From Ruminococcaceae bacterium Marseille-P2935 (GTDB lineage: Bacteria > Bacillota > Clostridia > Oscillospirales > Ruminococcaceae), in contig LT629951.1 of assembly GCA_900104565.1 (NCBI GenBank), positions 339,501-403,500 on the forward strand: a DNA stretch of 64,000 bases, given 5' to 3'. The notes beneath the pieces were generated by a model, which had not been told where the DNA came from, did not search any database, and was given only the letters and a program-made list of their open reading frames with translations. Made by a program: the position numbers and the translations under genes. Positions 14,499 to 20,311 of the stretch are shown here, in pieces. Each line of letters starts with the position of its first letter. The stretch's first letter is position 1.

Positions 14499-14806
14499 TA
14501 TTGTTTAAAAACGAAAAAATAGTATGGCAAATGTGCTGACAGCCGACAAATTGCAACAGGTTGTTGCATCAACAGGGAACCGGAAACACAGGGAAAAAAG
14601 TTCGACCTTCAGTAGTTCCATAGTAATATGTTCTTCATGCCCACAAAAACTGCTGTGATTGCTAATGCAGGCATCAGTTTGTTTTTGAAATACGTAAACG
14701 CACAGATGTCCCGACTTTGGAAACTGCAGGAAAAAAGCTTTAAAAAATTTAAATAACCTTTTTAAGATAAAAACTATCTATCAAATTTTTGGAAGAACAT
14801 AAAAAA

Positions 14807-14838
14807 ACCGGACAAAAAGAAAATCCTTTTTGTCCGGT
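14807..14838 (-). terminator. Terminator of the split tRNA-Arg gene
   Basis: Perfect 13-bp arms ACCGGACAAAAAG/CTTTTTGTCCGGT followed on the reverse strand by a T-run. It sits 4 bp past the CCA end of the tRNA 3' half, as expected for the original tRNA transcription unit. Confidence 0.88.
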
Positions 14839-14842
14839 TTTC

Positions 14843-14886
14843 TGGCACCCCCAGTAGGAATCGAACCTACAACTAGCCCTTAGGAG
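14843..14886 (-). tRNA. tRNA-Arg(CCU), 3' half only (gene interrupted in anticodon loop)
   Basis: The reverse strand reads anticodon loop CTCCTAA, 3' anticodon stem GGGCT, a short variable loop, T stem-loop GTAGG-TTCGATT-CCTAC, acceptor strand TGGGGGT, discriminator G and an encoded CCA. Every part is intact. The matching 5' half (acceptor GCCCCCA, 5' anticodon stem AGCCC) lies 3.1 kb away at 18026-18062 in the same orientation. Joined, they give a normal 75-nt tRNA with all stems paired. The gene was therefore whole before an insertion in the anticodon loop. This half has no promoter of its own and should be non-functional. Confidence 0.9.
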
Positions 14887-15243
14887 AACCCGTAAACACT
14901 TTCCCTTTTTGTTCATTAGCATTCAAAAAATGCTGTAAACATCAAGGCTTTTTCGGTGTCCGAGTCCATTTACATTTAGGTTTGTCTGAGTTCACCCATT
15001 TCGTTAGATGTTCATGGGTACGTTTTAGACGTTTTTTAGATTTTTCTAACAGTAGCGGAAAATGCATTTTCCATTACTCGCCGGTATTAGATAAATGGGA
15101 TATTAGTACCCTGTTAACCCTCAGGGGACGCACTTTCTATGACACCATATTATCATGACAGCATCAGAAAGTCCATATAACAAAAAGAGTACTGATAGAC
15201 TCTTTCTAGATGGATTCGTTCGTTCAATACTCTCTATGTAATT

Positions 15244-15348
15244 TTATTTAATTGCTTGTGCCAATGTATTTATAAGTGCAGCCATTTCTGGGTTACTCAA
15301 GATTTTCAGTAGTTGCTCGGGACTTAATTCAGCATCACCAACTATAAA
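15244..15348 (-). pseudogene. C-terminal fragment of an unknown protein (34 aa)
   Basis: Directly downstream of the adhesin, the reverse strand encodes a well-formed C-terminal tail (VGDAELSPEQLLKILSNPEM, then AALINTLAQAIK, stop), preceded by an in-frame stop and with no start codon. The helical, amphipathic, protein-like composition suggests a real gene end left behind when the rest was lost. It is in a different frame from the adhesin. I do not recognise the family. Confidence 0.45.
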
Positions 15349-15361
15349 CTACAACATTGCT

Positions 15362-16906
15362 TTAGCCGAAAGTATATGTTACACACTTATTCTTCTTGAA
15401 TTCCAGTTTGTGACTACCGTTGCCAAATGCGATAGCATTGTGGCCTTTGTAGGAAGGATTGTTGTCAATCAGGCAGTCAATCGCAGCATTTACAAGAGTT
15501 GCATCAACTACTTCTGAAAACCAGAACATACCGGAAGTGCCCTGCTTCATGAACATTACGGAAACATAGTTGTCTGCCATGAGGATAGGAGTCGATGTAG
15601 CATCATCGTTAATATCAATCTTATTGATGAATTCAACGTTTCCGGTTTCTTTGTTGATGAACATATAGCTGATGTTGGAAACAGTACCGCCTCTGAAAGT
15701 TACATTGTTGAATCCAATGCTTGCTTCAGCGTAAACAGGAGTTTCGCCCATTGCTACACCAACTAAGTTCTGAGATACTTCGCGACTGGTAGCAATACCG
15801 TCGTTATTTACATCAGCTGCTTTAGGTGCATAGAAGTAAACTCCTTTGTGAAGAACCTGGGTACCGGACACAACTGCTTTGATAGTGTCGCCAGGCTGTG
15901 CAACTACTTTAATGTTGTATGTTTCGGTGCCAAGTTTTACAGGAACAACCTCTACGTTGTCTCCTGCTGTTACAGTGATCTGGATATTATCCTGATAACC
16001 GCTGCCGCTATTGTTCAGTGTGATTTCAAGATTTGTTGTGTAATATTCGCCATTTAAAGCAACAGGTGCGCCTGTCATTTTCAGATCTGTGATAATGATC
16101 TGTGCTTTGTCTGCATACACAGCATTCTGCGTCAGCAGGTAATCAACAAGTGCGTCAACACGTGTGCCGACTTCGGTAAGATTAGTGAATTTTCTATTGC
16201 CGGTTGCCCAGTCAAAAGTACCGTCCTCATTCTTCATTTCATTGTTGTAATCGTGCATTACAGTGCCCCACTGGAAGTTGTCAGGAACATTGTAGGTTTT
16301 GTTATATCTCAATGTTTCGCCGCCATTAGCGCATGTCCAGATAGCAGTCTGAACCGCTGCAATGATATCACCGCGAGTCAGTTTGTCTGCGTCTGTGAAG
16401 CCATTCTCAGCCAGATCGGCTTTCATAGCTTCCAGAGAAACATATGGATAGGAATTGGTTACAATAGAACGAATTTTAGCAGCATTTTCATTATTGAAAT
16501 ACTCGCTGTCTTCAAGGTTCATACGCTTGTAATAAATGCTGTCACCAATTATGGTTTCAACATCACAGCAGTAAGTAACATCGTAGTTACTTGTATAGGG
16601 AGAATAAATCCCATTAGGTGTCCATGTTGTGCCGTTGTATGCAGCAGTATCGATTACAACAAATGTCTGAGGGGATTCGCTTGCCATGAAGTGATTGCTG
16701 ATTTCATACGCGTGACTAGGCTTTCTGAACAGAGACATGTAATTATAGCCTTCGGTACCCGCTGTCACTTCAACAGCCATTTCGTCACCATACCAGATGT
16801 TGCCGTTGTCTAAAGTTGTTTTTGCCATTGCCGGTGTGCTGACTACACTTGAGCACAACACAAGAGCCAGTAATGTGGAAAGAACTTGGTAAAGTTTTTT
16901 TGCCAT
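15362..16906 (-). CDS. Secreted thioester-domain (TQXA-type) adhesin-like protein
   Basis: 514 residues. The start is at ATG 16906 behind AGGAGAA. A signal peptide (about 1-28) ends STPAMA. The N-terminal region (about 30-250) has the two features of thioester domains: Cys113/114 in TYCCDVET and Gln186 in AAVQTAIW, able to form an internal Cys-Gln thioester that bonds covalently to host or surface amines. A beta-rich middle part (about 275-400) holds a single calcium-loop-like DVNNDG. The C-terminal domain (about 400-514) is unrecognised. There is no LPXTG motif or C-terminal membrane anchor, so it is probably released or held non-covalently. It is the only full protein gene inside the split tRNA. 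Confidence 0.8.
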   Translation of the reverse strand: MAKKLYQVLSTLLALVLCSSVVSTPAMAKTTLDNGNIWYGDEMAVEVTAGTEGYNYMSLFRKPSHAYEISNHFMASESPQTFVVIDTAAYNGTTWTPNGIYSPYTSNYDVTYCCDVETIIGDSIYYKRMNLEDSEYFNNENAAKIRSIVTNSYPYVSLEAMKADLAENGFTDADKLTRGDIIAAVQTAIWTCANGGETLRYNKTYNVPDNFQWGTVMHDYNNEMKNEDGTFDWATGNRKFTNLTEVGTRVDALVDYLLTQNAVYADKAQIIITDLKMTGAPVALNGEYYTTNLEITLNNSGSGYQDNIQITVTAGDNVEVVPVKLGTETYNIKVVAQPGDTIKAVVSGTQVLHKGVYFYAPKAADVNNDGIATSREVSQNLVGVAMGETPVYAEASIGFNNVTFRGGTVSNISYMFINKETGNVEFINKIDINDDATSTPILMADNYVSVMFMKQGTSGMFWFSEVVDATLVNAAIDCLIDNNPSYKGHNAIAFGNGSHKLEFKKNKCVTYTFG

Positions 16907-17066
16907 GTTTAACTTCTCCTTTTTGTAAAATGATTTCGAAAGATGAAAAGAAACATAGACGGTCGGGCTGTCATAGCTTGTAAAAGCCGTAGACCCCTTA
17001 ACTTTGCGCCCCAATTTTTCAAAAGGTTTGCCATTATCAAGTTTCTATGAATTCCAGGTGATTAAG

Positions 17067-17125
17067 GTATGTACAGGATTGGTATACATACCATCCTGTC
17101 GTTTTTCCCAGAACAGATACGACAG
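17067..17125 (-). promoter_or_regulatory. Two dyads upstream of the adhesin gene
   Basis: GGTATGT pairs with ACATACC (about 17067-17092), and CTGTCGT (17096-17102) with ACGACAG (17119-17125). They lie 160-220 bp before the adhesin start, in a leader or operator position. No clear -35/-10 pair is visible. Confidence 0.35.
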
Positions 17126-17473
17126 AAATGAGAATATATATCGTCTGTGACCGACAACTATTCTTATCAAAAACATTTTACCAAATATAGGTCTCGAAAT
17201 AAAGATATTTTTTTGAAAATATTTATAATCAGATGAAAAAACTCAATTAAATCAACTAAGATGTATGTGCCGCTTTTGAAATTCTCGGAGCTGCACTATT
17301 CAGATGAGAAATATCCCGATATGCAAGAAGGGACTGATCTTCAAAAATTCTTTCCGGAATCTGTGATATCCAGCTAGATTCATTCATAGTAGGAACTTCC
17401 AGATCAAATGCAAAGAGAACAATTGCCGCAAGATCACGGATGTTCATGTTTTGAATGACCGTAGCATTACAGC

Positions 17474-17508
17474 AAAAAAAGCCCTGTGATGGTGACCACC
17501 ACAAGGCT
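17474..17508 (-). terminator. Strong reverse-strand intrinsic terminator within the element
   Basis: A 13-bp stem AGCCCTGTGATGG (17480-17492) / CCACCACAAGGCT (17496-17508) with a 3-nt loop is followed on the reverse strand by seven T. It would stop read-through from the tRNA-Arg region before the adhesin. Confidence 0.8.
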
Positions 17509-17690
17509 ATGTAAGATATCATCATTCAATTTATACAGAGAAGTACACAAAGAAACACCCAGCAACAGTGAATATACCTCTCTTTTAGAAAAATCGTTCT
17601 TCAAATTTTCATCGTGTTTTTGGTGAAACATATTATTTTTTAGATTTGTTCTAATTGTAAATTAAAAATATTAGATTAAAATATTAGAAA

Positions 17691-17721
17691 ACGCGGAAGA
17701 TTACTTAGAATACTTCCACGT
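17691..17721 (-). terminator. Terminator of the intact tRNA-Arg
   Basis: ACGCGGAAG/CTTCCACGT forms a 9-bp stem with one wobble pair, with T-rich sequence after it on the reverse strand, 9 bp past the tRNA CCA. Confidence 0.65.
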
Positions 17722-17729
17722 CTATTGGC

Positions 17730-17806
17730 TGGCGTCCCCGAGAGGATTCGAACCTCCGGCCTGCTGCTTAGGAGGCAGCCGCTCTATCCTACTGAGCTAC
17801 GGAGAC
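17730..17806 (-). tRNA. tRNA-Arg(CCU), complete
   Basis: A 77-nt tRNA with acceptor GTCTCCG/CGGGGAC, a normal D arm, anticodon loop CTCCTAA (anticodon CCU, reading AGG), T arm with TTCGAAT, and encoded CCA. Its body differs clearly from the split tRNA-Arg(CCU), but the anticodon loop is identical. It lies within the inserted DNA, 220 bp inside the junction and in the same orientation as the split gene. It could supply the lost decoding function. No good promoter is visible directly upstream; the orphaned promoter of the split gene points toward it. Confidence 0.95.
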
Positions 17807-18025
17807 ATTTGATAAAAACCCTTATTTTTCAAGGCTTTTCGGCCTTCCGATTCGGGTTCCAGATTATATTTTTATACCCAAAATCTATTAGAAATTTGGA
17901 TGTAAAAATTCTTTTTTGGGAAAATGCTAACGCCGCCTTTTTTAGATTTTTTGAGAAAACCTATCTGGATTTGTATTCCCATCCAGATTATTATTCAGTT
18001 CATTTTCCCCGTACTAACAAGTTAT

Positions 18026-18062
18026 TAGGAGGGGCTTGTTATATCCATTTAACTATGGGGGC
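18026..18062 (-). tRNA. tRNA-Arg(CCU), 5' half only (gene interrupted in anticodon loop)
   Basis: The reverse strand reads acceptor GCCCCCA, TA, D arm GTTA-AATGGATA-TAAC, a linking A, 5' anticodon stem AGCCC and loop CTCCTAA, then departs into unrelated sequence. GCCCCCA pairs fully with TGGGGGT of the 3' half (one G-U), and AGCCC pairs with GGGCT. The element's end does not rebuild the missing half, unlike most tRNA-targeting integrations, so the gene is broken. Confidence 0.9.
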
Positions 18063-18071
18063 GAATAGACT

Positions 18072-18099
18072 ATTTATGCGGTTTTTTCCATTGAAACAA
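18072..18099 (-). promoter_or_regulatory. Retained promoter of the split tRNA-Arg gene
   Basis: On the reverse strand TTGTTT (18094-18099), 16-bp spacer, ATAAAT (18072-18077), about 9 nt before the first base of the tRNA 5' half. It still faces into the inserted element and could drive the intact tRNA-Arg at 17730-17806. Confidence 0.5.
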
Positions 18100-18309
18100 C
18101 GCATTTATTTTACAATGAAGCGTATGTTTTGTCAACTGAATGGAAGAAAATGCGCAGAACACTTTATTATTATCGTAAAAGATGCTATATTAATAAAGGA
18201 TTTCGCTGGGACACGTTTCCATTTCAGCTTGGAACGGGATAATCTGCCCTGTTCAGGTTTAAACTAGAAGAAGCGAAAGAAAATTTTCAACAAGGTAGGT
18301 AGAATTTGC

Positions 18310-18744
18310 GTGCAGGGACTTAAACGAGAGAAGTCCTGCGGTGCATTGGTGTACCGCAAGCAGGATGATAAAATTGAATTACTGGTGCTGAAGCATCGCT
18401 ATGGCGGACACTGGTCTTTTCCAAAAGGCCATGTGGAAAATGGCGAGAACGAGCACCAAACCGCACTGAGGGAAGTTAAGGAAGAAACTGGCCTGAGCAT
18501 TGATTTGCTGGAGGGTTTCCGTAAAAGTGTGGAGTATTACCCGAAGCCGAATGTAAAAAAACAAGTGGTGTATTTTTTAGGCCACGCAAGAGATGACAAG
18601 GTAAAGAAACAGGAAGAGGAAGTGAGCGAGATTAAGTGGGTTGATTTAAAAGAAGCCCACAAAGTTGTAACTTTTCGCAATGACAAAAACCTTATTGATG
18701 AGGCAAAACGGTATTTAATTGATCCAAAAGAATTGGAAAGATAG
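18310..18744 (+). CDS. Nudix hydrolase (Ap4A-hydrolase-like)
   Basis: 144 residues. The Nudix box is complete: Gly40, Glu46, then Arg54-Glu55, Glu58-Glu59 and Gly61 in KGHVENGENEHQTALREV. The small size and FPKGHVENGE context are typical of bis(5'-nucleosyl)-tetraphosphatase-like or general housecleaning Nudix enzymes, which cleave nucleoside diphosphate-X compounds using Mg2+. The start is a GTG behind AAGGTAGG. It stands alone next to the tRNA insertion and before trkH. The exact substrate cannot be told. Confidence 0.88.
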   Translation: MQGLKREKSCGALVYRKQDDKIELLVLKHRYGGHWSFPKGHVENGENEHQTALREVKEETGLSIDLLEGFRKSVEYYPKPNVKKQVVYFLGHARDDKVKKQEEEVSEIKWVDLKEAHKVVTFRNDKNLIDEAKRYLIDPKELER

Positions 18745-18931
18745 CCCCGCCCAAAAGGAATGGGCGGAATACATATGATAATTAGGGCTTGTTTGAAATA
18801 GAAAAGTTTGCTGTAAAACGAAAACTGTAGGAATACGTTCGGTGATCCAACTAGTTTTTTAAACGTGGCAGATTGCCGCTGTTTTGGCAAACGACGTGAT
18901 CAAACGCCCCTAGGTTAGGTAGGTAAGTATT

Positions 18932-20311
18932 GTGCAGGAGTCCGCAAAAAAACAAACCCTGCTAAGCCGGGTTTTCGGCTCTTCTACCAGGGTGATTTCG
19001 GTTAGTTTTGCCATGGTAATATTAGCAGGTACGCTGCTTTTAATGATGCCGTTTTCTGCAAGGGATGGGCACTTCACCAACCCTTTGGATGCTCTATTCA
19101 CCGCCACCTCGGCTACCTGTGTGACAGGGCTTATAGTATTTGACACTTTTACAAAATGGACAACCTTTGGTCAAATTGTTATTCTTGCATTGATTCAGAT
19201 TGGCGGGTTGGGCTTGGTTACCTTTACAACTTTTTTTAACGTGCTGATTGGCCGAAAACTGGGCCTGCGCAGTATGCAGCTTGCCCAGGAATCGATCAAT
19301 TCTTCCAGCATGGTCGGAATTACAAAACTTGTTAAGATGGTCGTTCTGGTGTCTTTCCTTATTGAAATGATTGGTATGCTCTCCCTTTGTTTGACCTTTG
19401 TTCCAAAATATGGTGCACAGGGCGTTTTTATCTCCTTCTTTTTAGCAATATCCGCATTCTGCAATGCAGGGTTCGATATTTTAGGGCGGGAAGGAGAGTA
19501 TTCCTCCCTGATTCATTATAATGGCAATTTTAATGTTATACTTACCATTGCACTGCTCATTATTATAGGTGGTTTGGGGTTTGCGGTGTGGAATGACCTG
19601 ATTAATTACCGGAAAACCAAAAAACTACTGCTGCATACCAAAATAGTTCTGCTTTGCACCGGTGCGCTGATTGTAGTTGGTACCCTGGCGTTTTTAATTA
19701 TTGAATGGTCCAACCCTGCTACGATTGGTGAAATGCCATTTTACAAAAAAGTGCTCAATTCATTTTTTCAGTCAGTAACTTTACGTACCGCGGGGTTTAA
19801 CTCTATTCCGTTGGAACCGCTGAATGGGTTGACCAAGATGGTTTCGATTGTGCTTATGTTTATTGGTGCGGCACCAGGCTCTACTGGCGGCGGTATTAAA
19901 GTAACCACCTTTATGGTAATTGTTATGACGGTTGTCAGTGTTGTAAAAGGCCGGGACGACACAGTTATTTTAAAACGTAAAGTGAATAAACAGGTTGTAT
20001 ATAAATCGCTGTCTGTTATGATGATTGGTGTTTTGGCTGTTGCTACCTGTTCTATTATTATTTTCTTTACGACTAGCGAAAGCCATATGGTTTCCGGGTT
20101 AGACGCCTGTTTTGAATCTGTTTCGGCATTTGCAACGGTGGGTGTTTCCACTGGTGTCACCTCGATTGCCAATGTTCCATCTAAAATTGTTTTAATTCTA
20201 TCCATGTTTCTGGGCAGGGTTGGCCCTGTATCGCTGGCACTTTCGCTGGCAATGCGCGGCAGCGGCAACAAAAAAGAGGTTATTCCGGAAGGGAAAATTA
20301 TTGTCGGCTAA
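18932..20311 (+). CDS. TrkH/KtrB-family potassium uptake protein
   Basis: 459 residues with four membrane-pore-membrane repeats. The selectivity-loop stretches are visible: TSATCVTGL near residue 58, NAGFDILG near 182, TAGFNSIP near 286 and ATVGVSTG near 400. The protein is the ion-conducting subunit of a K+ (or Na+/K+) uptake system. Its regulatory partner TrkA/KtrA is not nearby. The start is GTG 18932. The upstream AGGTAGGTA...TGTGCAGG resembles the sequence around the preceding Nudix start. A clear terminator follows. Confidence 0.92.
   Translation: MQESAKKQTLLSRVFGSSTRVISVSFAMVILAGTLLLMMPFSARDGHFTNPLDALFTATSATCVTGLIVFDTFTKWTTFGQIVILALIQIGGLGLVTFTTFFNVLIGRKLGLRSMQLAQESINSSSMVGITKLVKMVVLVSFLIEMIGMLSLCLTFVPKYGAQGVFISFFLAISAFCNAGFDILGREGEYSSLIHYNGNFNVILTIALLIIIGGLGFAVWNDLINYRKTKKLLLHTKIVLLCTGALIVVGTLAFLIIEWSNPATIGEMPFYKKVLNSFFQSVTLRTAGFNSIPLEPLNGLTKMVSIVLMFIGAAPGSTGGGIKVTTFMVIVMTVVSVVKGRDDTVILKRKVNKQVVYKSLSVMMIGVLAVATCSIIIFFTTSESHMVSGLDACFESVSAFATVGVSTGVTSIANVPSKIVLILSMFLGRVGPVSLALSLAMRGSGNKKEVIPEGKIIVG

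Follow-up and report, generated by a model that had tools for sequence, protein, structure and literature searches.

A tRNA-Arg(CCU) gene split at its anticodon loop by a probable integrative element remnant that carries a replacement tRNA

The window, a stretch of 64,000 nucleotides from Ruminococcaceae bacterium Marseille-P2935, contains a 75-nt tRNA-Arg(CCU) gene cut exactly at CTCCTAA, its 7-nt anticodon loop, with the two halves lying 3.1 kb apart. The intervening DNA comprises, in order on the minus strand, a left arm, a replacement tRNA, a riboswitch, a thioester-domain gene, the tail of an integrase gene and a right arm. The features of the locus, listed in this direction, are:

18310-20311, plus strand: NUDIX and TrkH genes, which mark the host locus in synteny comparisons with relatives
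18107-18135, minus strand: promoter-like hexamers of the host tRNA, TTGACA-17-TAAAAT (11/12 matches; form only)
18025-18062, minus strand: 5′ half of the host tRNA-Arg(CCU), GCCCCCATAGTTAAATGGATATAACAAGCCC-CTCCTAA, with the loop at its end (sequence match)
17807-18024, minus strand: left arm, 219 nt from the break to the replacement tRNA
17588-17949, minus strand: seven TCTAA repeats in the same orientation, candidate arm-type integrase sites on the left (0.8 expected after shuffling)
17730-17806, minus strand: intact replacement tRNA-Arg(CCU) (ARAGORN; Rfam 68.1 bits)
17256-17525, minus strand: 89-aa open reading frame with no family match, which may not be a gene
16955-17042, minus strand: c-di-GMP-I riboswitch (Rfam 64.2 bits; gathering score 35)
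15362-16906, minus strand: cargo gene for a secreted or surface protein of 514 aa with a thioester domain (TED, PF08341; E 5e-8)
15244-15342, minus strand: end of a tyrosine integrase gene, 32 codons plus stop, the rest deleted (62% identical to the C-terminal end of the integrase in G012, E 3e-7)
14887-15243, minus strand: right arm with four TCTAA repeats in the same orientation (15094-15007; from the sequence)
14843-14886, minus strand: 3′ half of the host tRNA-Arg(CCU), CTCCTAA-GGGCTAGTT...GGGGGTGCCA, with the loop at its start (sequence match)
14802-14843, minus strand: terminator-like hairpin of the host tRNA gene, directly after the 3′ half

The two halves overlap in CTCCTAA and nothing more, and they pair with each other in two stems, AGCCC with GGGCT in the anticodon stem and GCCCCCA with TGGGGGT, including one G-U pair, in the acceptor stem. 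A whole-genome search with the joined 75-nt query matched solely these two pieces, bearing out the preliminary description of this DNA, which had proposed a tRNA-Arg(CCU) split at the anticodon loop with seven shared nucleotides. Its statement that neither junction restores the tRNA likewise stood, as no complete host tRNA was found at either insert junction with ARAGORN or by comparison with relatives. The terminator that it had placed outside the insert, at 14807, falls within the hairpin that follows the 3′ half; the promoter that it had placed at 18072-18099 was not upheld, the hexamers lying instead at 18135-18107. These hexamers are judged on form only, because the promoter scan as a whole returned no more sites than shuffled sequences did.

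As anticipated for genomes lacking the insert, an uninterrupted tRNA was common among 100 relatives, the best being 97% identical across all 75 nt (G053). As in the window, the tRNA has TrkH and/or NUDIX as its immediate upstream neighbours at L117, L123, L129 and L199, where it is intact, and at L067, L071, L116 and L118, where it is split. The uninterrupted gene in relatives, including beside TrkH/NUDIX, indicates that DNA was inserted into a conserved locus in the window and that the likeness of the halves to a tRNA is not due to chance.

The intact tRNA-Arg(CCU) of the insert clearly differs in sequence from the split host gene, and a census of tRNA loci found it (17806-17730) to be the only intact tRNA-Arg(CCU) of the genome. 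The census also recovered tRNA-Arg genes with anticodons ACG, CCG and UCU, the last of which may also cover AGG codons. The preliminary description, which overlooked the inner gene, considered the tRNA gene destroyed; this holds for the host copy. Loss of tRNA-Arg(CCU) function was not inevitable, since the insert brings a complete replacement, and the host gene is, judged from sequence, replaced rather than simply lost. We found no clear promoter or terminator-like site between the break and the replacement tRNA in the window, making read-through the likelier route of expression. Among relatives, the left arm of L068 carries a near-perfect promoter (TTGACA-17-TATAAT), and many left arms are too short to hold one, so that transcription of the spare tRNA may start from the host tRNA promoter 5′ of the split half.

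All that remains of a tyrosine integrase gene in the window is its last 32 codons (VGDAELSPEQLLKILSNPEMAALINTLAQAIK, aligned with AGVDPELLMKLLTNPEMASLLKTLAQTIK of G012), whereas relatives have full-length integrases. The tail stops 357 bp short of the right junction, the corresponding distances being about 280 bp in G108 and about 400 bp in G012. The TCTAA motif occurs seven and four times in 480 nt at the insert ends and is absent in that orientation from the cargo gene; the repeats look like arm-type integrase sites, and G025 and L068 have TGCTAAC and TGCTAAT repeats, respectively, at the matching position. The integrase tail agrees with the tyrosine-recombinase-type integration over a 7-bp overlap at the anticodon loop that had been suggested earlier, and the proposal of an unusual integrated element or remnant held up, the copy here being a decayed one. 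The insert holds no usable integrase, and the rest of the genome no helper integrase of the same family, only distant recombinases (best 30% identity), indicating that the mobility of this element lies in the past. Relaxase and type IV secretion system (T4SS) genes are absent from the insert, and gene and domain annotation revealed no phage genes in it.

The 514-aa cargo protein has an N-terminus resembling a signal peptide and a TQXA domain match slightly below cut-off. Its gene lies behind the c-di-GMP-I riboswitch (15362-17042), and the protein has only distant relatives in 149 related genomes. No homologues were found in plasmids or phages; with one weak viral contig and two weak relatives, the protein was dropped as a marker of the family. 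Given the small insert and the unrelated cargo, the thioester-protein gene may have arrived by a separate event.

A search with an alignment of five integrases yielded 79 loci, from Clostridia and Erysipelotrichia genomes, with full-length relatives of the window's tail across Clostridia. A split or element-borne tRNA-Arg(CCU) adjoins 73 of these 79 integrases, 52 identified by script and 21 by reading (CTCCTAA followed by a whole or partial 3′ half); of the six loci without it, three have less than 700 bp on that side. The arrangement in the window is not a one-off: it recurs across many Clostridia, with full-length integrases. At least one complete related element contains conjugation genes, the 64-kb element of G108, which is flanked by host halves that pair and has its spare tRNA 87 nt away from the break; it encodes ParB, a relaxase, a TraG-type ATPase and a T4SS coupling protein, and its integrase shares 62% identity with the one in G025. 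The G012 element is larger, about 72 kb up to the next 3′ half, which derives from another tRNA, and has a RepA_N gene and, recognized by eye, ParA and ParB genes. The element of G068, a single-contig genome, spans 6.3 kb between outer halves that pair.

Several loci stand apart. A second short insert of this kind, of about 2 kb and without integrase, lies at L068 (5155-7283), where genes for a GNAT protein and a zeta-toxin-like kinase adjoin the spare tRNA. At L207-L218 and L280, integrases about 81% identical to the query occur in genera that are not related to each other (Hungatella, Eisenbergiella, Holdemania, Emergencia and others), a pattern suggesting the recent spread of one element; L280 is the only one of these loci without a nearby tRNA-Arg(CCU). 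L040 (G079) has two intact tRNA-Arg(CCU) genes of different types, about 270 bp apart, and no split gene.

All loci together comprised 43 distinct split 5′ halves or stacks of them, 38 with enough sequence to judge. An intact tRNA-Arg(CCU) follows the split 5′ half at 54-501 nt in 35 of these 38; the three exceptions are one N-masked, one with little downstream sequence and one doubtful half. As a rule, the spare tRNA lies 54-240 nt from the left junction. In left arms of 54 nt (L077, L118, L069, L261 and L144), T-loop-like GTTCGANTCC stretches stand immediately 3′ of CTCCTAA, perhaps as relics of an older attP that rebuilt the tRNA.

At least two split 5′ halves precede the intact tRNA in 16 of the 35 cases, the element's own tRNA having been split again. 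In the complete genome AP025576.1, the host 5′ half and an arm are followed by the 5′ half of an outer element, a further arm and an intact inner tRNA, and then by an inner element of about 10.3 kb, the 3′ half of the outer element and the outer integrase. The outer halves pair at 5/5 positions of the anticodon stem and 7/7 of the acceptor stem, and the outer 3′ half pairs poorly with the host 5′ half. In Eisenbergiella tayi, the outer halves lie about 107 kb from each other and also match by sequence (TTCGC/GCGAA and GTCTCTG/CAGGGAC). These matching halves around an inner element indicate that the spare tRNA serves as a target in its turn. The deepest stack seen is that of Angelakisella massiliensis (NZ_LT629945.1, 484083-484607; L261, L305), with five split 5′ halves, three of them in near-identical 93-bp units, and then one intact tRNA-Arg(CCU). 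In G094 (L184-L187) and G012 (L195), the downstream 3′ half fits none of the stacked 5′ halves seen, suggesting that deletions, or exchanges between the att sites of different elements, took place afterwards.

An ordinary insertion might have destroyed a dispensable tRNA gene, the internal tRNA being coincidental; the tRNA-Arg(UCU) of the genome could indeed cover AGG codons, but in 35 of the 38 informative cases, which span many genera, the break is followed by an intact tRNA with the same anticodon, and in the window's genome the internal copy is the sole intact one, making coincidence very improbable. We consider it equally hard to credit that this is a classical tRNA-targeting island whose attP rebuilt the host tRNA and whose rebuilt half has since eroded. 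The GTTCGANTCC stretches in the 54-nt left arms of some relatives, perhaps relics of 3′ halves, speak for such an origin, yet the left arm of the window and most arms of relatives contain no tRNA half, a whole tRNA lies inside instead, and the right 3′ half pairs with the left 5′ half, so that neither half came from the element.

Group I introns occur in the anticodon loops of bacterial tRNA-Arg(CCU), and an intron there, or a two-piece tRNA joined at the RNA level, could likewise separate the halves. However, the insert measures 3.1 kb, its content is unrelated between species, and relatives reach 64 kb with conjugation genes; moreover, no intron family was among the Rfam matches at gathering score, and we give splicing almost no weight. 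The chance of an assembly artefact at one or both junctions is just as slight: the contigs of several relatives end near these repeats, but the window is part of an 809-kb contig with the locus inside it, and the arrangement is seen again in independent complete genomes.

We favor, with a probability of roughly 0.9, the reading that the insert is a decayed integrative element, from a family whose attB is the anticodon loop of tRNA-Arg(CCU) and whose members split the host tRNA, replace it with their own and are re-targeted to the spare. This reading builds on what can be read in the DNA: the host gene is split, the insert contains a replacement tRNA and the remnant of an integrase gene, relatives have an empty site in the syntenic position, the association with tRNA-Arg(CCU) holds across the family, and elements are nested. 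A tyrosine integrase would have recombined the attP of the element with the chromosome over the 7-bp overlap CTCCTAA, strand exchange probably occurring at exactly these seven bases. Because this attP would have held no tRNA half, the host gene would have stayed permanently split, and the complete tRNA-Arg(CCU) near the left end of the element would have taken over, presumably being expressed and used. In relatives, the spare tRNA with the same loop would offer the next landing site, so that elements stack within each other. The window's integrase gene would later have been deleted apart from the final 32 codons, so that the replacement tRNA stayed behind together with the riboswitch-linked thioester-domain gene, whose product may serve as cargo. 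The ancestor of the element was probably transferred by conjugation.

The arrangement resembles tRNA-dependent lysogeny, which is established in actinobacteriophages, where the host tRNA is broken and a spare supplied (Guerrero-Bustamante and Hatfull 2024, PMC10865867); these phages carry tRNA-Lys or others, and the dependence was proven by mutants (PMC10865867). Likewise, the window has an attB in a host tRNA gene, a short 7-nt core and a tRNA that is not rebuilt, and the intact tRNA inside the insert, tRNA-Arg(CCU), has the isotype of the host gene. Actinobacteriophages, however, are phages, whereas here conjugative-type elements and their remnants occupy tRNA-Arg(CCU) in Clostridia: strict tRNA-dependent lysogeny concerns temperate phages, and the insert has no phage genes while G108 has conjugation genes. 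Also unlike the actinobacteriophage account, the spare tRNA here itself serves as attB, resulting in stacks. In the Rhizobium phage vTRX32-1 group and in Sinorhizobium prophages, the host tRNA-Leu is interrupted and a phage tRNA-Leu supplied (PMC8631192, PMC11476347); the tRNA of vTRX32-1 has no att motif, a lack that in the view of its authors prevents further integration (PMC8631192), whereas the spare tRNA of the clostridial elements retains the motif and is re-targeted.

Genomic islands in tRNA genes use a tyrosine integrase, with crossover in the anticodon loop among the known sub-sites (Islander, PMC4383910). Such islands restore the tRNA by a fragment; the elements described here do not, and neither junction in the window gives a tRNA. 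With its relaxase, coupling protein, TraG-type ATPase and integrase, the G108 element resembles an integrative and conjugative element, which is defined by integrase, relaxase and T4SS genes; the window insert has the integrase tail only. In a literature search with sparse coverage of subscription journals, we found no report of conjugative elements acting in this way at tRNA-Arg(CCU), or of serial nesting via a spare tRNA. Conjugative elements in Clostridia that use the principle of tRNA-dependent lysogeny, and whose spare tRNA then becomes the site where the next element lands, appear to represent a new variant of it.

These observations show that the replacement of a tRNA at integration is not confined to phages but extends to conjugative-type elements of a broad family in gut Clostridia. 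Since the element does not restore the tRNA, searches for a tRNA plus a displaced fragment would misread it, and tools expecting a rebuilt tRNA will miss such elements or misplace their ends. The landing site renews itself, and the order of insertions can be read at one locus. We lean towards a broader view in which tRNA-Arg(CCU) is, in many Clostridia, a horizontally renewed gene: a large class of integrative elements would replace it, the spares would become the next targets, the broken 5′ halves would accumulate as a stacked record of one invasion after another, and the need for the tRNA would fix decayed remnants like that of the window in place. The locus also suggests a reason why a decayed element may become hard to lose, and shows a route by which horizontal transfer can replace a translation gene.
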